This document shows, piece after piece, positions 107 to 13,205 of a DNA stretch of 64,000 bases; positions within the stretch are counted from its first letter, which is position 1, and every line of letters starts with the position of its first letter. The position numbers and the translations under genes are program-made. Origin of the DNA: Desulfovulcanus ferrireducens (GTDB taxonomy: Bacteria > Desulfobacterota > Desulfovibrionia > Desulfovibrionales > Desulfonatronovibrionaceae); the NCBI RefSeq assembly GCF_018704065.1, contig NZ_JAGUQP010000010.1:1-64000 (forward strand), given 5' to 3'. The notes beneath the pieces are model-generated. The model did not search any database. It was not told where the DNA came from and saw only the letters and a list, made by a program, of their open reading frames with translations.

Positions 107-1000
107 GTCTCAATCCTTTTTTCTCAAAGGTACATCTCTATTCTGTAAAAGATGTGAAGTTTATTTTAACGAAGACGATTATTGGGTCTCAATCCTTTTT
201 TCTCAAAGGTACATCTCTATTAAGATTTAACTTGGTGTAAAAATCAAATATTTGAAATGAAAGGTCTCAATCCTTTTTTCTCAAAGGTACATCTCTATTT
301 ATAATGTCTTATTGGTGGTCTTATAAACCTGGAGACATTGGTCTCAATCCTTTTTTCTCAAAGGTACATCTCTATTGGGAATTTCCTGAAATGTATGAAC
401 ATCTTGAAAGAGTTGAAAATAGTCTCAATCCTTTTTTCTCAAAGGTACATCTCTATTTCCATAGCGAGCCAATAGGATTCTATTCCCTAATAGAGGCATA
501 GTCTCAATCCTTTTTTCTCAAAGGTACATCTCTATTCTCAAATTAAAAGTAAAGGTTTATTAAACATTGTCTTAATCAAGTCTCAATCCTTTTTTCTCAA
601 AGGTACATCTCTATTCACTAAAAAACCTTCTTTGTATAAAGCAGGAGCGGAAAAGGTCTCAATCCTTTTTTCTCAAAGGTACATCTCTATTACCTGAATT
701 TAACCTCGGCCATGTTCAGGTATTTCCAAAGTGTCTCAATCCTTTTTTCTCAAAGGTACATCTCTATTCCCAAATATCACATTTTAAAATCTATCCAAGA
801 AAAAGATTTGTCTCAATCCTTTTTTCTCAAAGGTACATCTCTATTGATGAGAATGGCTTTATAAGAACTAAGGTTGATAAAACCAAAGTCTCAATCCTTT
901 TTTCTCAAAGGTACATCTCTATTCTGGACTAATTTCATTATTATTTAAACGATTTTGAACTAAAGTCTCAATCCTTTTTTCTCAAAGGTACATCTCTATT
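107..1000 (-). CRISPR. CRISPR array 1, 12 repeats and 11 spacers, type III-A
   Basis: Twelve copies of a 36-base repeat start at 107, 186, 264, 341, 422, 501, 580, 656, 733, 810, 888 and 965. Spacers are 40 to 45 bases long. The plus-strand repeat begins GTCTCAATCC and ends TCTCTATT; on the minus strand it ends ATTGAGAC, a good match to the 8-base 5' handle that Cas6 leaves on type III crRNAs. A leader-like sequence lies at the right end, so transcription should run leftward, in line with the cas genes. All twelve repeats appear identical by eye. The spacers are AT-rich and most can be translated on the plus strand, the strand a leftward crRNA would bind. Confidence 0.97.
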
Positions 1001-1814: not shown

Positions 1815-2050
1815 CTGTCTTTTAACTTTTCAAAAATTTCCATATCTTCTATCAATCTTTTGCAGACAATCTTCCTGCCATCTCCACAAATATCCACCAC
1901 CTTCCATCTCATAACAATTTTATCTTTAAATTTCCACATATTACATTTTGCGCATACCAAAGGCATTTCCCCAATATTTTCAAACCGTCCTGAGGCCCAC
2001 GCAAATAGAGCCAAGCAGCCACAAAATCTAAATATCTTTTTGCCCTCCAT
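1796..2050 (-). CDS. small cysteine-containing hypothetical protein, 84 aa
   Basis: I do not recognise this protein. Its ATG at 2050 overlaps the end of the upstream CARF gene by 23 bases, with a purine-rich GGGGAAG before it, so it could be translationally coupled. The sequence has CxxC at residues 33-36 (CAKC) and two more cysteines (CGDG and VCKRL) that might form a small metal site. It has a hydrophobic N-terminal stretch but no clear signal peptide. The last residues and stop are encoded by a stray CRISPR repeat, so the native C-terminus may have been cut off. It may be an accessory of the CARF protein, a truncated remnant, or not a gene. Confidence 0.4.
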   Translation of the reverse strand: MEGKKIFRFCGCLALFAWASGRFENIGEMPLVCAKCNMWKFKDKIVMRWKVVDICGDGRKIVCKRLIEDMEIFEKLKDRIEMYL

Positions 2051-3164
2051 ACTTCTTCCCCAAATAAACAGCCGCCCAATTCAATGCATTTTTAGACTCA
2101 TCAGAAATACGAATCCTGAACCTGGCGCCAAAATCCTTGTGTTTATAGGTTCCGATTAATTTGTATCCATCTTTGTCCGACTTTACTCTGAAATGCTTGC
2201 CCTTAATGTCTCTTTGTCCGTAATATGGTTCAGTATGGATAGTCTTTATCCATTTATTTTCTTCCCAAATCTTGTTGACAAACTTCTTAAGACCGCCTGG
2301 ATAATGGTGGTCATTGCCAAAAGTGGGCTCTTTGCGTTCTACTGCCTTTTCAAGTGTTTGCGGCGCGCTCTGATGTCTTCTGTCATAGCTAAGCAGATAA
2401 ACCTGCCCAATCGGACTCAATTCATAAAGCCTTTCGCCATCAACCTCCACCTCGGTCAAAAATATTTTGAGCCTTTCATCTATCACCCCCAGCTCGCTCT
2501 CCGCAAAACAACTCCCTTGTTCAAGACTCATCAATATATCTGCGTTTTCACCCACTAGGTCATAGTCCAACGAAATTGGCAAGGGAGGAAAATCAATGAT
2601 CTCGTTGAAACGTTCATGCTTGTAGTAAACGGGTATGTTCAGTGCCTGTCCGATAACCACGGCAATGGCAATCTGCGCTTTATAGCCCCCTGTTGCATCC
2701 AGGGCGACAAACCTCTCGCCCCCAAATCTCTGGATATAGTCGCCTATGGTTTTGACCAGGTTCCTGAGTCCTTTAGTCCTGAAGTCCCTTGGCGCCTCAT
2801 CCTGCAAATTTTCGATCACGGCATAATCCAGGGTCTTAAATTTCAAATCCTTTCTCAGGGCAAAATATTTCTTCAGGAACTGCCCCATGTTCCTGCCCTG
2901 TTCAGTATCAGAAACAAGAAAAATAAGGTTATCCAAGTCTATCCCTTTTTTATACCTTAAGTGTTCAATGGTATTGATCTCTGCCCCGCAACAACCATGC
3001 GCAGGATCAATGTTTGCCATTAACCTGGCCACTCTTTTCCAATCCTTTTGCTCCGAGGAGAGCCGAATTTCTTCCCACTCAGCCGGCATGTCCGAGCCTG
3101 GTTCCAGCCGTTTCAAATTGCCCAGAAAACTGGTTCCTACAGTACAAAGAAGCGTATTTCTCAT
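2028..3164 (-). CDS. CARF-domain protein with wHTH and unrecognised C-terminal domain, 378 aa
   Basis: This belongs to the CARF proteins of the APE2256/TIGR02619 type, which bind cyclic oligoadenylate made by Cas10. The N-terminus has the strand and loop LLCTVGTS, and residues 156-163 carry the second ligand-binding motif (DATGGYKA). Residues about 230-262 look like a winged helix (ELSPIGQVYLL), as in its neighbour at 4872. The last 100 or so residues (280-378) are rich in His, Lys and aromatic residues and end in predicted strands (IGTYKHKDF, FRIRIS). I cannot assign this domain with confidence; a divergent RelE-like RNase is one possibility. The start has GGAGCGAG just upstream. It lies 14 bases after the end of a decayed csm5 and overlaps a small downstream ORF. 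Confidence 0.82.
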   Translation of the reverse strand: MRNTLLCTVGTSFLGNLKRLEPGSDMPAEWEEIRLSSEQKDWKRVARLMANIDPAHGCCGAEINTIEHLRYKKGIDLDNLIFLVSDTEQGRNMGQFLKKYFALRKDLKFKTLDYAVIENLQDEAPRDFRTKGLRNLVKTIGDYIQRFGGERFVALDATGGYKAQIAIAVVIGQALNIPVYYKHERFNEIIDFPPLPISLDYDLVGENADILMSLEQGSCFAESELGVIDERLKIFLTEVEVDGERLYELSPIGQVYLLSYDRRHQSAPQTLEKAVERKEPTFGNDHHYPGGLKKFVNKIWEENKWIKTIHTEPYYGQRDIKGKHFRVKSDKDGYKLIGTYKHKDFGARFRIRISDESKNALNWAAVYLGKKYGGQKDI

Positions 3165-3178
3165 GGCTCGCTCCGTTT

Positions 3179-3888
3179 TTATATAATTTCCAGCAATTTT
3201 TTATACCAATCTTTCTTTTTGCACCTTTTTTCAGACCCGTATCCTTAATAAACTCCACAATTATTGCGCTTGCCTGTTTTTGAAACTCAGTGTCATCATC
3301 GTCTAAAACCTCGCGGCCAATATTAGGCGGCGAGCCGGCACGCTGATTAGCAGGCATGGCACCCAAACGCAGCGTCAGGGCAGCAATTTTTTGCGCACTT
3401 ACCTCCAAAGGATCAAGTTTATCCTGCTTTAGAATTTCAGGCGCCGATCCTTGCTGGCCCTGCGCATTCTCTGTTTGAGATTTATATGGCTTATAAGCGG
3501 ACAAAATATTTTTCGGACAAAATCCCTCTTGCAAACGCAGCATAACCCAACCAAAAGGATACCTGCTTCCGGCAAGAGTCCTAGTTTGTGCCTTAAACTA
3601 TTCTGCCCTTATTTGTTTTGTCTGTTGGTCTGCTCACCTCATCCCAGGTCATACTCTCAACATGAGGGTATTTCCCAAGCCGCAATAAAGCACAGGTTTT
3701 GCTGTTTTTTATTTGCTCTATCCGCTCCATTACCGGCCTTAAACTGGCTATCTATAAAATTTTTCCATCTCTTCCTGAAATCTAGCGCAATAAAACAGGT
3801 TTAAAGCCAGCACAAGCTCACCTAAACCAAAAAAAAATATTTTACGTTCGCATTTTTTAAGGTTTTTGTCCGCAAAATTGCCAATAAT
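3179..3888 (-). pseudogene. csm5: decayed 3' part of a second csm5
   Basis: Read leftward from 3888, fragments in shifting frames match the intact Csm5 at 5992: a segment with FADKN, CERKI and ALNLFYCARFQEE, then a stop; VESMTW; YPFGWV; and a long C-terminal piece with PANQRAG and DTEFQ. The final frame shift near 3210 recovers KKKDWYKKLLEII and a TAA at 3179-3181. Over the C-terminal block about two thirds of residues match the intact copy, so this is not a recent duplicate. The 5' half of the gene is missing; homology stops at about 3888, 24 bases before the terminal repeat of array 2. The CARF gene follows directly, mirroring the csm5-CARF order of the intact locus. Confidence 0.9.
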
Positions 3889-3912: not shown

Positions 3913-4640
3913 GTCTCAATCCTTTTTTCCTAAAGGTACATCTCTATATGCAGACTAGGGTACAGATGTATGATGCTGCATTAAGGTAGTCTCAATCCTT
4001 TTTTCTCAAAGGTACATCTCTATGAAAGAAAAAGGTTAAATAGATAAATGGAGGGTTTATCATGTCGGGTCTCAATCCTTTTTTCTCAAAGGTACATCTC
4101 TATTTTATTTAAAGATTTAGCGGAATTGTACTATAGAGGGTTCGCGTCTCAATCCTTTTTTCTCAAAGGTACATCTCTATATGCAGACTAGGGTACAGAT
4201 GTATGATGCTGCATTAAGGTAGTCTCAATCCTTTTTTCTCAAAGGTACATCTCTATAAGCTATGATTAAAGCTTATTGTAAAAAATACGAAATTGACGAA
4301 AATGTCTCAATCCTTTTTTCTCAAAGGTACATCTCTATTATATGTGTAAAGATATAGAAATGGCAAAACTTGCCGATTGGTCTCAATCCTTTTTTCTCAA
4401 AGGTACATCTCTATGAAATAACAAGTTGAATATATATGAGGGGTTAATGCCCGTCTCAATCCTTTTTTCTCAAAGGTACATCTCTATTTCAAAAAATACC
4501 TAATGCTGTATGTTGTGTTGGAATTGCTTTGTCTCAATCCTTTTTTCTCAAAGGTACATCTCTATAGCGAACCGATAGGATATAGAGTTATAATTTAACT
4601 TCCCTGTCTCAATCCTTTTTTCTCAAAGGTACATCTCTAT
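3913..4640 (-). CRISPR. CRISPR array 2, 10 repeats and 9 spacers, type III-A
   Basis: Repeats start at 3913, 3989, 4069, 4146, 4222, 4304, 4380, 4453, 4531 and 4606. They are the same as in array 1, but the conserved unit is 35 bases because the final base varies. The repeat at 3913 has two changes (TCC-T for TCT-C), as expected at the leader-distal end. Spacers are 38 to 47 bases. The spacer at 3948-3988 is repeated exactly at 4181-4221, so only eight spacers are unique. The leader lies at the right, 21 bases from the stop of the CARF-RelE gene, so array and cas genes point the same way and could share transcription. Confidence 0.97.
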
Positions 4641-4850
4641 ACTGCCTTCCTAATCTCCAATCATTCCACCCCATTATCCCCCACCTTGCGCGAACCTTTT
4701 TCCCAAAAATCATCTTTACCCTCCAACCACACTTTGCCTTACTCCTTTTTTCTCAATCATCCCAACTAATTACAGCTTTGCGCCGACCAGAGCCAATTTC
4801 GCCCACTTTCCCCTTTTTGCCAAGTCAGCGCACATTTCCACCCACTTATC
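4641..4850 (-). promoter_or_regulatory. CRISPR leader of array 2
   Basis: This sequence parallels leader 1 over about 210 bases with scattered substitutions and one indel in an A-run. It fills almost all of the gap between the CARF-RelE stop (4872) and array 2. The 14-base internal match to the repeat is kept at 4743-4756. No clear -35/-10 pair was found by eye. Confidence 0.85.
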
Positions 4851-4871: not shown

Positions 4872-5966
4872 TTACAGATGCTCATCTAACCTATCCACCA
4901 CAAACACATTCCCTTCAAAATACCCATAAACCCTATCTCCCTCACCAGTCCACGCGTAAAACTCGTGCGTACACGGCTCCATTGCCTTTCCCTCAATGGG
5001 GTGAAAGCGCAAACTCCTGGGATTAAATCCTTCATCTCTCAAACATCTAATAAGCTGGTCAATGCGATCGTTCATTTCTTTTTTTCTAGCCTCAGGTAAT
5101 CCATTAATCTGTTTTACAAATTTTTCAGAAAACCGCACATATTCCACTGGCTCCGGCCAGAGCCGCTCTCGATACAAGACTTCTTTGGCCCTGTTCCAGA
5201 CCACCTTGCCCCAAGGTGAAAAATCCACTTCTTCTTCCAGCCTGAAGACAAATATCTCAGGTAATCTTTCTGCTTCTTCAGGCTTTAGAAGCCTTGCCTC
5301 AAGCCGTCTGAACAAAGAAATGTTTTTTTTAATCCCCCCTTCCATATCAATTTGAATGGGCAGTCTGGGAATACGCAGCAGGGTTGAACCAGACTCAAAC
5401 ACATAAATAATCTCATCTGCATAAAACATGGCAATGACCTGCAAAAAACCCTGCACGCTTTTAAATCCTCCTGTCAGGTTAAACACAATGTGATATTGGT
5501 TTTGCCTGTAACCTGGCAAAGTAGAATCAAACAACTCTGCCAGTTCTGTTAAAGCCAATTGAAAGGACAGCATATTTTCTGTTTGTAAATCTGTTTGCCG
5601 ATGCACCTCAACGCTCATTTTGTCATTTTGCTTGATGAGCCAATCACGAATCATGGTGCCTGTTTGTTCACCAAGCCAAGTATCAGTACAAAGCAGAAAA
5701 TGATAATCACCTGCCATGAAGCGACCATTGTAAAATTTCACCAATGCGTTTAGTTCGGCAGAACGCCTGGTTACACCTGCGGGGCCGAGGGCAAACAATT
5801 CTTCCTTTACCTTTTGTACCCTTTTTTCCAGCAATGACCGATGTTCAGGTTCTATATCGCCTGGATTTTTATAATTGGCATAACGGGTCAATAAGGCGCG
5901 TGTTTCACCATCAGCCCCGCCGGTTAAAAGACTTGTTCCGCATGGAGACACAATGTAATTGGGCAT
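4872..5966 (-). CDS. CARF-RelE fusion, candidate cOA-activated mRNA interferase (Cami1-like), 364 aa
   Basis: The N-terminal CARF domain (about 1-205) has the loop SPCGTSLL and the ligand motif NLTGGFKS at 163-170, so it should bind cyclic oligoadenylate. A short winged-helix-like segment follows (FSPWGKVV, 249-256). Residues about 275-364 look like a RelE/ParE toxin: a strand YVRFSEKF, two helices, then LRFHPIEGK, HEFYAW, RVYGYF and a terminal strand ending VVDRLDEHL. A CARF-RelE protein, Cami1, is known as a ribosome-dependent mRNA interferase switched on by cyclic tetra-adenylate; similarity to it is inferred from architecture. The gene follows csm5 by 25 bases with a strong GGAGGAAG site. 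There is no separate antitoxin gene, which suits allosteric control by the CARF domain. Confidence 0.85.
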   Translation of the reverse strand: MPNYIVSPCGTSLLTGGADGETRALLTRYANYKNPGDIEPEHRSLLEKRVQKVKEELFALGPAGVTRRSAELNALVKFYNGRFMAGDYHFLLCTDTWLGEQTGTMIRDWLIKQNDKMSVEVHRQTDLQTENMLSFQLALTELAELFDSTLPGYRQNQYHIVFNLTGGFKSVQGFLQVIAMFYADEIIYVFESGSTLLRIPRLPIQIDMEGGIKKNISLFRRLEARLLKPEEAERLPEIFVFRLEEEVDFSPWGKVVWNRAKEVLYRERLWPEPVEYVRFSEKFVKQINGLPEARKKEMNDRIDQLIRCLRDEGFNPRSLRFHPIEGKAMEPCTHEFYAWTGEGDRVYGYFEGNVFVVDRLDEHL

Positions 5967-5991: not shown

Positions 5992-7416
5992 TTATCCGTT
6001 CACCAGTTCATGATACCATTTCTTTTTCTTTACGCTTTTCTTCAAACCTGTCTTTTGCACAAATTCCACAATAACCTGCCTGGCCTGATTTTGAAACTCT
6101 GTATCCTCATCAGCCATGACCTCATGTACAATATTAGGCAGAGAACCTGCCCGCTGATTGGCTGGCAGGGCTTCAAGACGCTGTTGCAAGCTCTTCAATT
6201 TCTCCCTGCTCTGATTAACTTCCGGCTCCTGTAGGTCCTGATCCGGTTCGTCAGCTTTACTGTGCTCTTTTACGCTTGCTGTTACAGGCATGGCAAAAGA
6301 CGGGATATGCTCGTCGGGACTGTAACCCTCGTCAAAGGTAAGTAATACCCAACCAAAAGGATAGCTGGCTTCGGCCAGGGTCCTGGTAGTGCCATAAACA
6401 TATCTATTTCCAATTTTTTTGCCTTTTGGTTTGCGCACCTTATCCCAGGTCATGCTTTCCACATGGCAAAAATGACCAATCCGCATCAATGCCTGATTGT
6501 TTTTTATCTGCTTTATGCGCTCCATCACAGGCTTTAAGCCAGCACCTACCTGACGCAAATGAGGAAGATTATAAAACTTTGTTATTTCTTCCTCAAACCT
6601 GGCCCGATAAAATTGATTCAGGGCAAGCAACAATTCATTCAAGCCAAAACTAGGTATTTTGCGCTTGCACTTTGCATCTTTTTGATCCGCAAAATCACCA
6701 ATGGACAACCTGGCCTTCAGGCGCAAATCATGTCCTGCGCAAAGACATTTTAGAGCCTCAACATAACCTTTCGGCACAGACCGTTTATTCGGATTTTTAC
6801 CCACTTCCACAGGACGCACAATTTCAGCTCCATCCTCAGGCACAACAGCATCAGATATTTTAAGGTGTTTAAAAACGTCAAAACGAACATCGCCAAAGAT
6901 AATCTTATTATACGAGTCAAAACACTCCTTTTGTTTACGCTCGTTGAAAGAACATTTTCGCTCTGCCTCGGCAGTTACAGTATGAGCCAAAAAACTTCCT
7001 ATGGCCGTGCGTATGGCTCCCTTAATACTGCTGCCCGGAACATAGGCATAATCTCCCACAGGATTGCGCGGCAAAAGATTAATGCGCAATTCATTTTCAT
7101 TACGCTTGCCCTGCATGGCCTGACTGTAAAAATCCACCAATTCCTGTGCTGCCACAGGTATTTTTGCTGTTGCATAACTGCTTATATCTCTGGCTCTGCT
7201 TAAAATACGCCTTAATTCCAGATAATTGTAATTTTTTAACGCCCTTGCCACATCTGGCTCCTGCGCATGGTCAGCAAACCACCGGCCACTATCCACAAGA
7301 AAAATATACGCATCTTTGTCCTGTTTTTGCAGCACATAATTTAACGCATCCAGGTCTTCACCAGTTCCAACATGCACAGGCGTTAATACTTCCAGAGTCA
7401 GGGTATAATATGTCAT
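5992..7416 (-). CDS. csm5: Csm5, type III-A RAMP capping subunit, 474 aa
   Basis: Csm5 caps the crRNA 3' end of the Csm effector and is linked to crRNA maturation. The RAMP signature is plain: EVLTPVHVGTGE near the start and YVPGSSIKGAIRTAIG in the first third. I take the ATG at 7416, which overlaps the csm4 TGA (ATGA) and has GGAGGTGG upstream; an upstream ATG at 7449 lies inside csm4 and lacks support. The protein is longer than usual for the family, with a C-terminal tail of about 90 residues (from ASVKEH, including PANQRAG) that ends in a lysine cluster. The same tail is kept in the decayed copy at 3179-3888. Confidence 0.93.
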   Translation of the reverse strand: MTYYTLTLEVLTPVHVGTGEDLDALNYVLQKQDKDAYIFLVDSGRWFADHAQEPDVARALKNYNYLELRRILSRARDISSYATAKIPVAAQELVDFYSQAMQGKRNENELRINLLPRNPVGDYAYVPGSSIKGAIRTAIGSFLAHTVTAEAERKCSFNERKQKECFDSYNKIIFGDVRFDVFKHLKISDAVVPEDGAEIVRPVEVGKNPNKRSVPKGYVEALKCLCAGHDLRLKARLSIGDFADQKDAKCKRKIPSFGLNELLLALNQFYRARFEEEITKFYNLPHLRQVGAGLKPVMERIKQIKNNQALMRIGHFCHVESMTWDKVRKPKGKKIGNRYVYGTTRTLAEASYPFGWVLLTFDEGYSPDEHIPSFAMPVTASVKEHSKADEPDQDLQEPEVNQSREKLKSLQQRLEALPANQRAGSLPNIVHEVMADEDTEFQNQARQVIVEFVQKTGLKKSVKKKKWYHELVNG

Positions 7417-8468
7417 ATTCCACCTCCGACAATACGAAGCGGTAACCACAGGCCCATAGCATAGTGCCTTATGCGTGCATCCACATGCACATCCTGTAAA
7501 AGTGCCCCAGCTGGCGCAGTATTGTCCTTAAAAACAGCTCCTGGTTCCAACAAAATCATTGGTTTTTTAAAGGGATTGGGTTTACTGCCATCAGGGCTAT
7601 GCACAGCAAAACTACCGCCTAATTTACCAAATCTGGAAAATACACTATAATAGCAAGGTAAATCTGGCATCCTCTCAAATCCCAGCAAAGACAGGCTCAT
7701 CCAGGCATTGTATTCTTTCAGGTCAAACAAACACCCAGGATTAAACTCATTGTCCTGCTCAATAACAAGTTGCCCTGCACCAGTGCTTTTATCTTTGCCA
7801 AAGCCAGTAGGCACAATATATTCCTGCCAAACTTCATCCCATAAGTTTTGATATTCCTGAGATGCAAATTTCACATACACATCAAAACAACTGCCCGGAT
7901 TAGCCCAGCTTTCACGGACAAAATACAGGCCCCCAGGTTCAAGCACAGTGCCTGTCTTGCGGCTAATAGTGTTGTGGGCACGCACTATTGATTTCCAGAC
8001 GCTCTCCTGGTTATTTCCTCTAAACGTTTTCTGATTTAACTTCTCTGCTGCCATACAAATCATGTTTTCCTGAGTTGCATTCTCACGCAATCTTAACCAA
8101 TCATCTATAGCTATCCATTTTTGCTTACGAATCTTCTTTAAAACCTGACTGCCCCAGAACAGCTTTTCATCCTCGCTTTTATCTCCTAATTTTTCATTAG
8201 CAGCAGCTATCTTCAAAGCTAATTTTCTAAGAAGCGACCTCTCAAGGGCTGGTAAGACAGGCAAAGGCAAATAGTTATGGGGAAAGGCGCAGGAAATAAG
8301 CATGGGCGCATCTTCCAAAAGGACATCATCAAACGCATCCAAAAAAGATTGTAAAAACTTCTCCCCCTTAAGATAACGCAGCCCCCAGCAAAGATGACCA
8401 AAAATAGTGTCAGAGTAGAGTGGCGTTATCAAACGGGATAAAAGGGTTATTTTATAACGCACATACAT
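7413..8468 (-). CDS. csm4: Csm4, type III-A RAMP subunit, 351 aa
   Basis: Csm4 binds the 5' handle of the crRNA and pairs with Cas10. The N-terminus has the family hallmark SDTIFGHLCWGLRYLKG, and a glycine-rich stretch (VPTGFGKDKSTGAGQL) in the second half matches the G-rich loop of RAMP proteins. It starts two bases after the csm3 stop and its stop overlaps the csm5 start, so the genes are tightly coupled. Length is close to the usual 300-350 residues. Confidence 0.93.
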   Translation of the reverse strand: MYVRYKITLLSRLITPLYSDTIFGHLCWGLRYLKGEKFLQSFLDAFDDVLLEDAPMLISCAFPHNYLPLPVLPALERSLLRKLALKIAAANEKLGDKSEDEKLFWGSQVLKKIRKQKWIAIDDWLRLRENATQENMICMAAEKLNQKTFRGNNQESVWKSIVRAHNTISRKTGTVLEPGGLYFVRESWANPGSCFDVYVKFASQEYQNLWDEVWQEYIVPTGFGKDKSTGAGQLVIEQDNEFNPGCLFDLKEYNAWMSLSLLGFERMPDLPCYYSVFSRFGKLGGSFAVHSPDGSKPNPFKKPMILLEPGAVFKDNTAPAGALLQDVHVDARIRHYAMGLWLPLRIVGGGI

Positions 8469-8470
8469 AA

Positions 8471-9181
8471 TTAATCTCCATTTTCAGATTGCAAACCAAC
8501 AGGCACATCCGCTTTTAATGCCTCCTGTAAATGTTCGTATTTGACTTCCTCTTCATCAATGCGCACATTACAAAATTTAATCTGACCACAACCTCTTGAA
8601 CCACATCCACCCAGGGCATCAAGTTCTAAAAGAGCCATTGCCTGTTTGATGGCTGTTAAAATATTATTCTTGTTTTGCCCATCAAGATCAAAAAGACGAA
8701 CACTAATGTTAAAATCAAATTCTACACCAGCAGGGACTCTTTCTAAAGGACGGGGATTTTCTGCTGTGCCTTTTATCCGATTAATGACATTTTCGTACTT
8801 AATTTCCATTGGTAAATCGCCATTTCTAAATTCATTTTTCCATTTTTCAGTCATATAGGCATCACGCACCAAGATACGCGTTGGACCTATCTTGGTTTTG
8901 CTTTTCTCAGCTCCACTAAACCCAAAAAGGCAACAAACTATACATTTACCACAATCACAGGGACCACCATCTCCTTTTAGCTTATTGTATTTTACTTCCA
9001 ACAAAGAACGCATTTTGCCTTTTAAAGATGAACCAGGAATATAAGGTTCACCTGTCAAAGGATGTTTGATAATTGGCTGATCTAGGCCACCAATTTCCAG
9101 GGCTGCATCACCACCGCCAATGTGTAAACCAGTTAACAGCTTAATTGTGCCTGTAATATGAGTAATTTTTTGTAATTGCAT
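8471..9181 (-). CDS. csm3: Csm3, type III-A backbone RNase subunit, 236 aa
   Basis: Csm3 forms the backbone filament and cuts target RNA every six bases. The sequence shows IGGLDQPIIK followed by PYIPGSSLKGKMRSLLE; Asp34 is at the position of the catalytic aspartate of known Csm3 proteins, so target RNA cleavage should be intact. A cluster of cysteines (CDCGKCIVCCLFG, about 77-89) matches the zinc-binding insertion of the family. It starts 12 bases after csm2, with GGAGG ahead of the ATG. Confidence 0.95.
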   Translation of the reverse strand: MQLQKITHITGTIKLLTGLHIGGGDAALEIGGLDQPIIKHPLTGEPYIPGSSLKGKMRSLLEVKYNKLKGDGGPCDCGKCIVCCLFGFSGAEKSKTKIGPTRILVRDAYMTEKWKNEFRNGDLPMEIKYENVINRIKGTAENPRPLERVPAGVEFDFNISVRLFDLDGQNKNNILTAIKQAMALLELDALGGCGSRGCGQIKFCNVRIDEEEVKYEHLQEALKADVPVGLQSENGD

Positions 9182-9193
9182 TGTGTACCTCCA

Positions 9194-9586
9194 TTAATTA
9201 ATCTTTAATCCATATTCTTTGGCAAAATGATAGTAAAATCCAACTACAGCTTCAAAAAACAATATGAAATCCATAAACTGCTCTTCTGTTTGTATATCTT
9301 TTACTGCATTTTCAATAAATTGCCTAAAACTTTGAGGAATTTTACCCCTCGCTGCATTGTAATTAACCTGCGCAACCTGCAAGGCAATTAATGGTTCTAA
9401 TTTTTGATAATCAAGACCATTTTTTAACTTCATTTCCAAACGTTTAAACTCACCGTAAAATTTTCGTAACTGACTGCTGCTCAATGTTTCTGTTTGTCTG
9501 TTACTTGCTTTACCATTTCTTTGTTTTCTTATAAATTTGTCAGCTTCTTGTCTTGCTTTGTCTATTAAATCTTCTTTAGTCAGCAT
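9194..9586 (-). CDS. csm2: Csm2, type III-A small subunit, 130 aa
   Basis: This is a short, all-helical, lysine- and arginine-rich protein in the place of the small subunit that lines the target RNA in the effector. The motif SSQLRKFYGEFKRLE is typical of Csm2. The start is set at 9586 because AAGGAGGTG lies five bases upstream and overlaps the cas10 stop; an ATG ten codons earlier has no such site. The C-terminus ends in a helix with FFEAVVGFYYH. Confidence 0.92.
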   Translation of the reverse strand: MLTKEDLIDKARQEADKFIRKQRNGKASNRQTETLSSSQLRKFYGEFKRLEMKLKNGLDYQKLEPLIALQVAQVNYNAARGKIPQSFRQFIENAVKDIQTEEQFMDFILFFEAVVGFYYHFAKEYGLKIN

Positions 9587-9597
9587 ACCACACCTCC

Positions 9598-12090
9598 TTA
9601 TTTTCTTATTGCACAAAGTGCATATTGTATTCCAACTATGTTTTTAGCAAATCCTTTTGCGCCTTCATTTACCTGAATAAGCTCGCGCAAATACTTAATT
9701 TCATCTTCATTTTGCACTTTTCCCTCCTTTACCTTCATTATGTTTCTGGCCAGATCATAAAGGGCGTGAGAAACATAAAGTCCGCAACGCCAATCAAAAG
9801 ATGATTTTTGCTCACTGTCTTCCCATCTTGCAATGACTTCTGCATCCCTGGCATACTTTAACAAACGATAGATAAAGGCCCTGCTTACCAGACTATCTTT
9901 GTCCATAGCCATTTCTGCCAGCCTTGTTCCAACTTCCACCTGCCTTTCCAGTTCATCCCAGGTCAACACCTCATCAAACAGACAAACAGCATCTTTAACT
10001 GTAAACCCCTGTTCGTCTTTTCTGGCCTTGGCCTTTTCCAGGGCTTCCTCTGCCAGTGGTGCTGCCCTGCGCACTGGAAAACCTGGTTTTATCAGATACA
10101 AACCACAGGAAAGGGAAAAGTCTTTATTGCCCGCACAAAACTCAGCAAACTCCTTTCTTATCTCCAGCGCCAGATCTATAGTCTGATGCCAAGGACCAAT
10201 GAGGAAAAGATCATCTCCGCCAGCAAAGACCACATAAGTATCCTGAAACTTCTCTGTCTGTTTTAACTTCTCCACTAGATAACCAGCAAAAAACACATTG
10301 AGCATCCTGGACAGCGAGGCAAACCTGGATAAGGAAAGCCGTTCTTTTAAGCCCAGGCTAAACACCAACCCCAGGTTATCCACATCTGCCTTTAAAAGAC
10401 ATAATAAGGCCCTTCCCCTGCGATCTTCACCTTCGCCTTCACACGATTTCAAGGCAATAAGACCAAAAGTCTTTGTCCGTCCTGGCAAATCTTCTTCTTT
10501 AACGTCAGGATAACTCTCTTTTGCCAATTTAAAAAAATCTTTATTCTTTAACTCCTCTCCTGTAATTTGAGGCATAAAACCAGCAAGCCACCATTGACCA
10601 AACTCAGTATCTGGCTTTACTCCTAAAACTAAGTCTGCCTTTTTTAAATCAATCTCATTTTCTGCATTGATAAACACATTTATATTTCCAAACACCTGAA
10701 ACCCGTCGCGGCCAAACACAACATATCTGGCTCCGGGTAGCTTCTTGCCAATGATTTTAATTTGTTCATAACACAAAGAACAAACAGAAGCGCCATCAAT
10801 CTCTTTTTCTGCAGGCAATTTTTCACAGGCTCTGCATTCACCTTTCCAGGCATACAAATCATAACCATCGTCCAGAACAGAACCTTTTTGTTTTAAATAA
10901 CTTTGAAAACGTGTATGCTTACTTTCATCCAGACAGAGATTAAATTTATCCAGGGTGGAGGCAAAATTTTCCAGCAGCAAATCTTTACCACTGACTTCCA
11001 GATGGGCCAGACAAAGGGCCAGTTCACCTTTAAAGCTGGCAATAAAAAACTCATCCACTTTAGTCTGAAAGTCTGCCACTATTTTTTTCACTCGCGGGGT
11101 ATTGGGCAAAAGTAAAATAAACTTGCCTCCAGCATCCATCACCTGAGCAACCAGACCAAGCCCTGCCTGTTTACAAAAGTCCAGAGTTATTGAACGCGTA
11201 AGTACCTGCAAATAAAAGGACCTGGCCCGAAATAACCGCACAGCCCCTTTGATGCCACTTTCACTTACGCCAAAAATAAAGCGCTGAATCCCTGAAAGGT
11301 CGCCACCAAACAAAATAAATTTCTTAGCATCATCTACCTGTGTTAGTGCTACCTCTGGATGGTCCTGATGATAAAGCCACAGGGCCTGGGCAACGGCAGC
11401 GGTAACCAGACAGTGGTCATACAAGGAGATATCCGGCAGGGTTTTGTAAGAAGAAGACGGCACGCACCAGAGATATTTTTCCATGATGCGCAGAAGCCAG
11501 GGCAGATAGTGCTTAAAGGGCAAGTTTTCAGGCATTTTTTCCAGTTCAGCAAGAAATCCTTTATACAAATTCTCGTATTCCTGGCCAAACTCATCCTCTT
11601 TTTTATCTTCCTCTTCCAGTCGTTGGACCGAAAAAATAGCCTCTTTTTCCGGCTTAAACTCCACGAGCTTCATCCGCCATTTGCCTGGCTCAAAAAACTT
11701 ATTTTGAGCCAATGACACCTCTTCCAGGATGCAATTGAGCCGGGCAGCGCGAAAATCTTCTGTAATTTTGTCCTTCACCCGATCAATACCAGCAGCCAGC
11801 CTATCCCCAACTGCAACACACATCTGATCCAGCCTTTCTTCATGAGGCTTATGATGAATGGACGCCAGAATTGCGAGTTCATCGCGCCTGCCTTCGAGTT
11901 CCGCAGGCAAAGGCAAAAAATGACGCACAAAATAGTCAGTATAAAGCACATGCCAGTGCGAATGGTGCCCATCTTTAAAAGGCATCAACTCGTCATCCTC
12001 TGGACTTCTGTCCGCTTTTGCCCGCTGCCCCAGCTTGCCTATATCGTGCACAAGGCCAGCCAACACAACCATCATTTGTTTTTCATCCAT
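9598..12090 (-). CDS. cas10: Cas10/Csm1, HD nuclease and cyclic oligoadenylate synthase, 830 aa
   Basis: Cas10 is the large subunit of the Csm effector. The N-terminal HD domain is intact (LVHDIGKLG, His15-Asp16, plus HHSHWH and SIHHKPHE), so cleavage of single-stranded DNA is plausible. A first palm domain contains GGDLSGIQRFIFG. A treble-clef zinc motif (CRAC...CSLC) lies near 415-445. The second palm holds GGDDLF at about 624-629, the active site that converts ATP to cyclic oligoadenylates on target binding. This product would be the signal for the two CARF proteins nearby. The gene follows cas6 by 22 bases with an AAGGAG site. Length is typical. Confidence 0.97.
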   Translation of the reverse strand: MDEKQMMVVLAGLVHDIGKLGQRAKADRSPEDDELMPFKDGHHSHWHVLYTDYFVRHFLPLPAELEGRRDELAILASIHHKPHEERLDQMCVAVGDRLAAGIDRVKDKITEDFRAARLNCILEEVSLAQNKFFEPGKWRMKLVEFKPEKEAIFSVQRLEEEDKKEDEFGQEYENLYKGFLAELEKMPENLPFKHYLPWLLRIMEKYLWCVPSSSYKTLPDISLYDHCLVTAAVAQALWLYHQDHPEVALTQVDDAKKFILFGGDLSGIQRFIFGVSESGIKGAVRLFRARSFYLQVLTRSITLDFCKQAGLGLVAQVMDAGGKFILLLPNTPRVKKIVADFQTKVDEFFIASFKGELALCLAHLEVSGKDLLLENFASTLDKFNLCLDESKHTRFQSYLKQKGSVLDDGYDLYAWKGECRACEKLPAEKEIDGASVCSLCYEQIKIIGKKLPGARYVVFGRDGFQVFGNINVFINAENEIDLKKADLVLGVKPDTEFGQWWLAGFMPQITGEELKNKDFFKLAKESYPDVKEEDLPGRTKTFGLIALKSCEGEGEDRRGRALLCLLKADVDNLGLVFSLGLKERLSLSRFASLSRMLNVFFAGYLVEKLKQTEKFQDTYVVFAGGDDLFLIGPWHQTIDLALEIRKEFAEFCAGNKDFSLSCGLYLIKPGFPVRRAAPLAEEALEKAKARKDEQGFTVKDAVCLFDEVLTWDELERQVEVGTRLAEMAMDKDSLVSRAFIYRLLKYARDAEVIARWEDSEQKSSFDWRCGLYVSHALYDLARNIMKVKEGKVQNEDEIKYLRELIQVNEGAKGFAKNIVGIQYALCAIRK

Positions 12091-12112: not shown

Positions 12113-13054
12113 TCACGCTTCCACACATTTATATTTTCCCAGCCCAAAACTGGTGTTTTTGCCTACATGGAAATATTGGCCCAAGAGCAAAAAGGGCCAG
12201 AAAGGCTCAAAATCGCCTTTAAAAGTAATGGATCCCACAAGGCCACCGCTTGGCATAATTGATTTCTGTCTTGTGGAGTATCGGCTCCAATGAAACCACT
12301 TAGTATTGTCCTCCAGCGTTTGAATGTTGGCTGCCAGATCAATCAAACCCTTGAAATCAACATCTGGTTGAGCAGCACAGTGAAATGTGGACAAAAGCGC
12401 TATCCGGCGCAGAAGGGAGCGAAACAAATCCTGAAAACTCAAACCTTTTTTTATGACCTGTCCTTTGCGCACAAGCTTGAGAGGGGTCAAAAATTCCAAG
12501 CTAATCCGCTCTCTTGGTGGCGCGGAAGCTAAAAGTTCGCTCCATTCAAATGGTGTAACAGGCTTAATCTCGCTAGAGCCCTGAGAAAAAACAGTTTTGT
12601 CCTTGCAGCGCACACATTCCAGAATGCATTTGCCTTTGTCCGCTCCTATCCCCTGGTTGCCCAGGGCCTCCATAACCAAAACAAAATAGGGTAAATAATC
12701 TATGGCCTTGCCTATCAAAGTTAAACCTACAACAAGCCTCGCATTTCTCTTTACCAGACGCTCCTTACCAAGAGGTGGACAAAGAACAAATGGGTGAGGT
12801 ATATGCTCGTACTTACGCATAATCTCTGCCTTTTGGGGCCGAGGGGTCTCAAATACATAGGCATAAATACAGGATGTAGCTAGTATGCAATCCTTACACT
12901 CAGATGTAGACCTAGCAACGCATACGCTCTTTTTAAAAATATGGCCAAATCCGCCCCTGAAGGTAGCACCTTTGTATGCAGGGAGCACAAACTCCTCTTT
13001 TGCACTAAACTCAAATTCCAACGGGAGAAGTTTCATCTCTTCCATCCAAGACAT
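12113..13054 (-). CDS. cas6: Cas6 crRNA-processing endoribonuclease, 313 aa
   Basis: Cas6 cuts the pre-crRNA within the repeat. The C-terminal RAMP glycine-rich motif is clear: GGLVGSITFKGDF and then GKNTSFGLGKYKC at the very end. Early in the protein a conserved block GATFRGGFGHIFKK is followed by cysteines (CVARS, CKDC, SCIY) as in the PF10040 group. I use the ATG at 13054, preceded by AGGTG, since the longer frame to 13186 adds a hydrophobic 44-residue stretch that does not belong to the family and starts inside a palindrome. It is the first gene of the cas operon. Confidence 0.93.
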   Translation of the reverse strand: MSWMEEMKLLPLEFEFSAKEEFVLPAYKGATFRGGFGHIFKKSVCVARSTSECKDCILATSCIYAYVFETPRPQKAEIMRKYEHIPHPFVLCPPLGKERLVKRNARLVVGLTLIGKAIDYLPYFVLVMEALGNQGIGADKGKCILECVRCKDKTVFSQGSSEIKPVTPFEWSELLASAPPRERISLEFLTPLKLVRKGQVIKKGLSFQDLFRSLLRRIALLSTFHCAAQPDVDFKGLIDLAANIQTLEDNTKWFHWSRYSTRQKSIMPSGGLVGSITFKGDFEPFWPFLLLGQYFHVGKNTSFGLGKYKCVEA

Positions 13055-13180
13055 ACCAACACCTATTCTAGTCAAAAGTTTAAGATATAAATTGAAAATA
13101 CAAATAACAGCTATAACTAAATGACTCAATAACAGACCAGCCATTAAAATTACTATCAAAAAAACTCCATAAATCTTTAT

Positions 13181-13205
13181 AAACAATATTTAGCAAATAT
13201 TGTTT
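13181..13205. promoter_or_regulatory. 25-bp palindrome upstream of cas6, candidate operator
   Basis: Positions 13181-13191 and 13195-13205 are perfect 11-base inverted arms (AAACAATATTT / AAATATTGTTT) around a 3-base centre. The site lies about 127 bases upstream of the cas6 start in the AT-rich region where the promoter of the leftward operon should be. A perfect dyad of this size suggests a dimeric regulator, but no regulator gene is seen and the binding protein is unknown. The arms are too AT-rich and lack a T-run for an ordinary terminator. Confidence 0.5.

Follow-up and report, generated by a model that had tools for sequence, protein, structure and literature searches.

The window, by which we mean the whole analysed stretch of 64,000 nucleotides from Desulfovulcanus ferrireducens, holds a type III-A CRISPR operon whose genes all lie on the minus strand in the order cas6-cas10-csm2-csm3-csm4-csm5-effector, with the effector as the last gene. 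The genes and arrays of the locus are, by position:

107-999, minus strand: CRISPR array 1, 12 repeats, same repeat as array 2
2028-3164, minus strand: second CARF7 effector, CARF_DUF2103 type, 378 aa (PDLC01930, E 5e-99)
3211-3885, minus strand: broken 3' remnant of csm5 (tblastn, 39.5% to the csm5 of the operon; interrupted by stops and broken frames)
3913-4640, minus strand: CRISPR array 2, 10 repeats and 9 spacers, one spacer present twice
4872-5966, minus strand: effector gene, CARF-wHTH-RelE, 364 aa (open reading frame, PADLOC profile and AlphaFold2 model, see below)
5992-7449, minus strand: csm5 (TIGR01899, E 7.2e-19)
7413-8468, minus strand: csm4 (TIGR01903)
8471-9181, minus strand: csm3, GGLD motif kept (TIGR02582, E 4e-66)
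9194-9616, minus strand: csm2 (PF03750)
9598-12090, minus strand: cas10/csm1, HD and GGDD intact (TIGR02578, E 1e-175; motifs)
12113-13186, minus strand: cas6 (PF10040)

Profiles of Pfam, PADLOC and NCBIfam show a complete Csm set, and the components by which type III-A is assigned (Cas10/Csm1, Csm2-5, Cas6 and an array) are all present. An earlier note on this DNA, made from the letters alone, had placed the effector with a complete Csm complex whose Cas10 keeps GGDD, and both points are borne out: csm2-5, cas10 and cas6 are detected by profiles, and Cas10 has HDIGK at residue 15 and GGDD at residues 624-627. This is the only Cas10 detected in a genome-wide search of the draft assembly, which is 98.6% complete; a second match to the Cas10 palm, on contig C2, is a GGDEF diguanylate cyclase. 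Two CARF7 (Cas_APE2256) proteins were found in the draft genome, both of them at this locus.

That 4872-5966 is a coding open reading frame stands as first reported, without mention of a strand; the strand is minus, and a plus-strand reading is ruled out by stops throughout. The gene starts 25 nt past the csm5 stop, and GGAGGAAG, upstream of its ATG, is a good match to a Shine-Dalgarno sequence. The PADLOC profile PDLC01934 (CARF7--CARF_RelE) spans residues 1-364 of the effector (profile positions 1-358/359, E 1.9e-117), and Pfam Cas_APE2256 matches residues 67-202 (E 9.4e-30). Within the gene the following parts can be placed:

5352-5966, minus strand: CARF domain of CARF7/APE2256 type, residues 1-205 (Pfam PF09651; fold match to Sis0811 and SSO1393)
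5931-5933, minus strand: Ser12, 100% conserved in 81 members
5460-5474, minus strand: TGGFK motif, residues 165-169, with K169 in 98% of 81 members
5157-5351, minus strand: winged-helix-like linker, residues 206-270 (secondary structure of the model; alignment to Sis0811 reaching residue 266)
4875-5156, minus strand: RelE-fold domain, residues 271-364 (Foldseek: 3bpq (MjRelE), 4lsy, 1z8m and Cami1)
4962-4970, minus strand: THE motif, residues 333-335 (92-96% conserved), a candidate for the active-site strand
4932-4934, minus strand: Arg345, 100% conserved in 81 members
4878-4880, minus strand: His363; 72 of 81 members have a His among their four final residues

The CARF-RelE architecture claimed in the earlier note is upheld by the full-length profile match and by a structure search with the model, TGGFK is indeed found at residues 165-169 of the translated frame, and the RelE-like domain that it had set at 275-364 is present at about 271-364.

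The AlphaFold2 model of the effector was built on a 66-sequence alignment and has a mean pLDDT of 94.4. The top four matches in a Foldseek search of the PDB were four Cami1 chains (8phj/8phb, best E 8.7e-17), followed by Crn1-type ring nucleases. With VIA-align, Cami1 8phj_X aligned with 319 residues at Z 20.3 and rmsd 7.7 (model residues 3-364), and the ring nuclease Sis0811 also at Z 20.3, over residues 1-266. A different placement of the domains probably accounts for the large rmsd to Cami1 (7.7 and 10.4). Comparison of the RelE domain, made on the whole-protein model, gave local Foldseek matches to the RelE toxins 3bpq (TM (target) 0.62, probability 1.00), 4lsy (probability 1.00) and 1z8m. 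The refuting outcome named at the outset, a C-terminal domain that fails to match RelE/ParE in a structure search, was checked in this way and did not arise; the suggested likeness to Cami1 is supported by its being the best PDB match over residues 3-364. At the level of sequence, likeness to Cami1 ends at about residue 263, and phmmer with longer relatives did not recover the Cami1 RelE sequence. Pfam gave no RelE/ParE match for the C-terminal part of the effector or for the isolated C-terminal domains of eight members, one of which gave a weak Gp49 match. When the C-terminal alignment was compared by hhalign with YafQ and ParE sets taken from relatives, the probabilities were 25 and 7 over 47-48 columns, too weak to align catalytic residues. 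A search of a viral structure library gave no match under E 0.001.

Conservation across 81 sequences is most pronounced at S12 (100%), R345 (100%), K169 (98%) and N299 (98%), followed by E335 (96%), T333 (93%), H334 (92%) and A338/W339 (92-93%). On alignment evidence, THE..AW..R appears as a RelE motif specific to the family typified by SyCsm6 of Synechocystis, a detail that is new here. The known catalytic residues are K52, K54, R61, R81 and Y87 in E. coli RelE and E46, R65 and H83 in YoeB. By topology of the model, the T333-H334-E335 strand would replace the K52/K54 strand of E. coli RelE, R345 may be the counterpart of RelE R61 and YoeB R65, and the terminal His (His363) that of YoeB H83. 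K169 corresponds to the ring-nuclease position K169 of Sis0811 and K167 of SyCsm6, and Ser12 to S12 of Sis0811; in Cami1 chain 8phj, which is bound to the ribosome, an Ala stands in place of this Ser. As judged by these alignments, the CARF domain keeps the ring-nuclease residues S12 and K169. The RelE domain has a dN/dS of 0.08 between the effector and that of genome G016 and is under purifying selection and not decaying; in other pairs dS was saturated, as it was in most, or the ratios were low, with dN only 0.08-0.24.

Relatives of the effector were sought by an alignment-based scan with one genome per species, in which 132 were found and 80 kept. Their hosts include Desulfobacterota, cyanobacteria, Pseudomonadota, Calditrichota, Planctomycetota, Spirochaetes and others, and none was found in phages or viral contigs. 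The earlier claim that known fusions of this kind are few is not sustained: in addition to the 132 relatives found here, Cami1 occurs in 135 of 1,113 type III loci (PMC11229360), and CARF-RelE fusions were on record by 2014 (PMC4012209). CARF-RelE effectors are a widespread kind that has already been described, and this protein is one more case. At least one CRISPR-Cas gene lies nearby in 61 of the 80 loci; by a rough best-hit assignment with overlapping classes, 18 of the 80 are Csm-like, 20 Cmr-like and 16 III-D-like, so the effector family serves all main type III subtypes. Just 12 of the 80 showed a csx1-like neighbour. Two members of the PDLC01934 family (L010 and L028) have a distinct C-terminal domain that lacks the THE motif and ends in HSINENP or HSINDNP, a second RelE-like version under the same PADLOC name.

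The closest relatives point to exchange of the effector itself. Four effectors of one bacterial family share 70-79% identity behind different complexes. Between the window and genome G015 identity is 72% for the effector, 68% for Cas10 and 58% for Csm5, while between the window and G016 it is 79% for the effector, 32% for Cas10 and 28% for both Csm5 and Csm4. In Desulfonauticus sp. 38_4375 (G014) a 77% identical effector lies downstream of cmr3-, cmr4- and cmr6-like genes, named from sequence reading and best hits, not from a profile scan. By locus, the 72-79% identical effector stands behind a Csm-B complex in L029, a Cmr complex in L030 and a Csm-A complex in L031. At the nucleotide level, likeness to G016 and G014 starts at the effector start. 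Similar effectors behind dissimilar complexes, with likeness from the effector start, indicate that the effector was swapped among two Csm lineages and one Cmr lineage; its exchange among the Csm-A, Csm-B and Cmr complexes of closely related bacteria is, as read from the sequences, another new detail. Such movement of the effector as a module, from one type III complex to another that is unrelated, implies a shared signal.

The surroundings of the gene, namely the second CARF protein (2028-3164), the two arrays and the csm5 remnant, were omitted from the earlier note. Of 395 genomes sampled across the phylum, 25 have the CARF_DUF2103 family; the C-terminal domain of the protein here has no Pfam match, and its single-sequence model is poor (pLDDT 48). 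Our literature search found no paper naming CARF and DUF2103 together, and this protein, a further new detail, may be the more novel of the two effectors. Directly in front of its gene lies the csm5 remnant. The arrays share one 36-nt repeat, of which a lone copy lies at 1779-1813, and their leaders (1002-1202 and 4642-4843) are 91-97% alike; the spacer at 3948-3988 is duplicated at 4181-4221, and no spacer of the window arrays matched a phage. The remnant, the common repeat and the near-identical leaders fit an insertion of a csm5-CARF_RelE-array unit into an older csm5-CARF_DUF2103-array unit, an order of events that we infer. On contig C14 (101-970, L206) another array has the identical repeat and adjoins cas1 at about 1079, probably as the adaptation module for the window arrays; another cas1 lies in a different gene cluster on contig C38.

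We consider the effector, with a probability of about 0.7, to be a CARF-wHTH-RelE protein of a type III-A system that acts in the manner of Cami1 and has a built-in off switch. It is most likely a self-limiting mRNA interferase triggered by cA4, where we infer both the activation and the dependence on the ribosome. The Csm complex would bind phage RNA and Cas10, judging by its GGDD, would make a cyclic oligoadenylate, most likely cA4. By analogy with homologues, the ligand would bind between the CARF domains of an effector dimer, and as in Cami1 the bound dimer would reposition its RelE domains for entry into the ribosomal A site, where cutting of mRNA would arrest translation. The CARF domain may then slowly cut the ring by way of the conserved Ser12 and Lys169, an activity known for SyCsm6, and so end the response. 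Destruction of its own signal, as by SyCsm6, is probable since the CARF domain keeps ring-nuclease residues, and is a point absent from the earlier note. The Cami1-like reading is favoured by the full-length family match, the fold match to Cami1 over the whole length and the local matches to RelE toxins; by the conserved S12, K169, THE, R345 and terminal His together with purifying selection on the RelE domain; and by homology to SyCsm6, the activity of Cami1 and an operon shared with the only Cas10 detected. Counted against it were the end of sequence likeness to Cami1 at about residue 263, the lack of a Pfam RelE match, the weak hhalign result, the absence from the effector of about 57 C-terminal residues of Cami1, and the fact that our literature search found no report of RNase activity in the SyCsm6-type subfamily.

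A rival idea is that the effector is mainly a ring nuclease which damps the signal for CARF_DUF2103, its RelE domain having little or no RNase activity. SyCsm6, a probable dimer, converts cA4 and cA6 to linear products, an activity abolished by K167A; it leaves total RNA uncut with or without cA4 or cA6, and it quenches its neighbour SyCsx1 (Ding et al. 2022, PMC9676260). A second CARF effector likewise adjoins the effector here. However, SyCsm6 was assayed on free RNA only, which is not the right substrate for an enzyme that depends on the ribosome; to leave naked RNA uncut is what is expected of a ribosome-dependent RelE, and the authors themselves speculated that the RelE domain requires translated mRNA (PMC9676260). 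The keeping of the RelE domain across phyla, with an invariant R345, the THE motif and purifying selection, and the scarcity of csx1-like neighbours further make a mainly damping role unlikely.

The RelE domain might instead cut a target different from A-site mRNA, such as free RNA of a preferred sequence, tRNA or rRNA, with a T-H-E/R/H site of its own. Its conserved residues differ from K52, K54, R81 and Y87 of E. coli RelE, and profiles join it unconvincingly to the YafQ or ParE sets. Yet the CARF-wHTH-RelE layout is that of Cami1, the best whole-length structure match is ribosome-bound Cami1 and total naked RNA is uncut by SyCsm6, and such a target is regarded as very doubtful. Improbable, too, is that the mechanism holds with an activator other than cA4, be it cA6, cA3 or several rings. 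The sequence does not reveal the products of Cas10, and SyCsm6 cleaves both cA4 and cA6, but cA4 is used by Cami1 and the Crn1-type CARF7 ring nucleases, and similar copies behind three complexes, Cmr included, fit the commonest signal. Beyond the Cami1-like reading of this protein, we tentatively propose, at somewhat less than even odds, that the SyCsm6 type forms a separate ribosome-attacking branch that has its own T-H-E...R...His set and no Cami1-like tail, unites sensor, trigger and timer, and recombines as a cassette among III-A, III-B and III-D.

Among known systems, the RelE toxins (MjRelE 3bpq; H. pylori 4lsy and 1z8m) have the fold of effector residues 271-364 but, unlike the effector, are free, paired with antitoxins, endowed with catalytic residues that appear to differ, and without CARF. 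The Crn1-type proteins Sis0811 and SSO1393 (7pq2, 3qyf) combine CARF and winged helix, share S12 and K169 with the effector position for position, and lack a RelE domain. Cami1 (PDB 8phb, 8phj; Mogila et al. 2023) has the same CARF-wHTH-RelE layout and whole-length fold and shares the CGTS and TGGFK motifs, whereas identity is only about 17%, the RelE domains are not alignable by sequence and the roughly 57 C-terminal residues past the aligned part have no counterpart in the effector. According to the summary given in PMC11229360, Cami1 is activated by cA4 and cleaves mRNA within the A site of the ribosome; ring-nuclease activity has been reported for it as well (PMC12409355, PMC12830947). The closest studied homologue is SyCsm6 (Sll7062, Synechocystis sp. 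PCC 6803, plasmid pSYSA), with 39.5% identity over 100% of the effector length and membership of the same PADLOC subfamily (E 2.9e-124 to PDLC01934). The two share the THE..AW..R..H motif, the ring-nuclease residues and the last position in a type III operon, but SyCsm6 accompanies a III-D complex and the RNase Csx1, whereas the effector here accompanies a III-A complex and CARF_DUF2103. Translation arrest is established for Cami1, while only ring-nuclease activity is on record for the SyCsm6-type branch, and the present locus offers a clean case for asking whether that branch cuts ribosome-bound mRNA.
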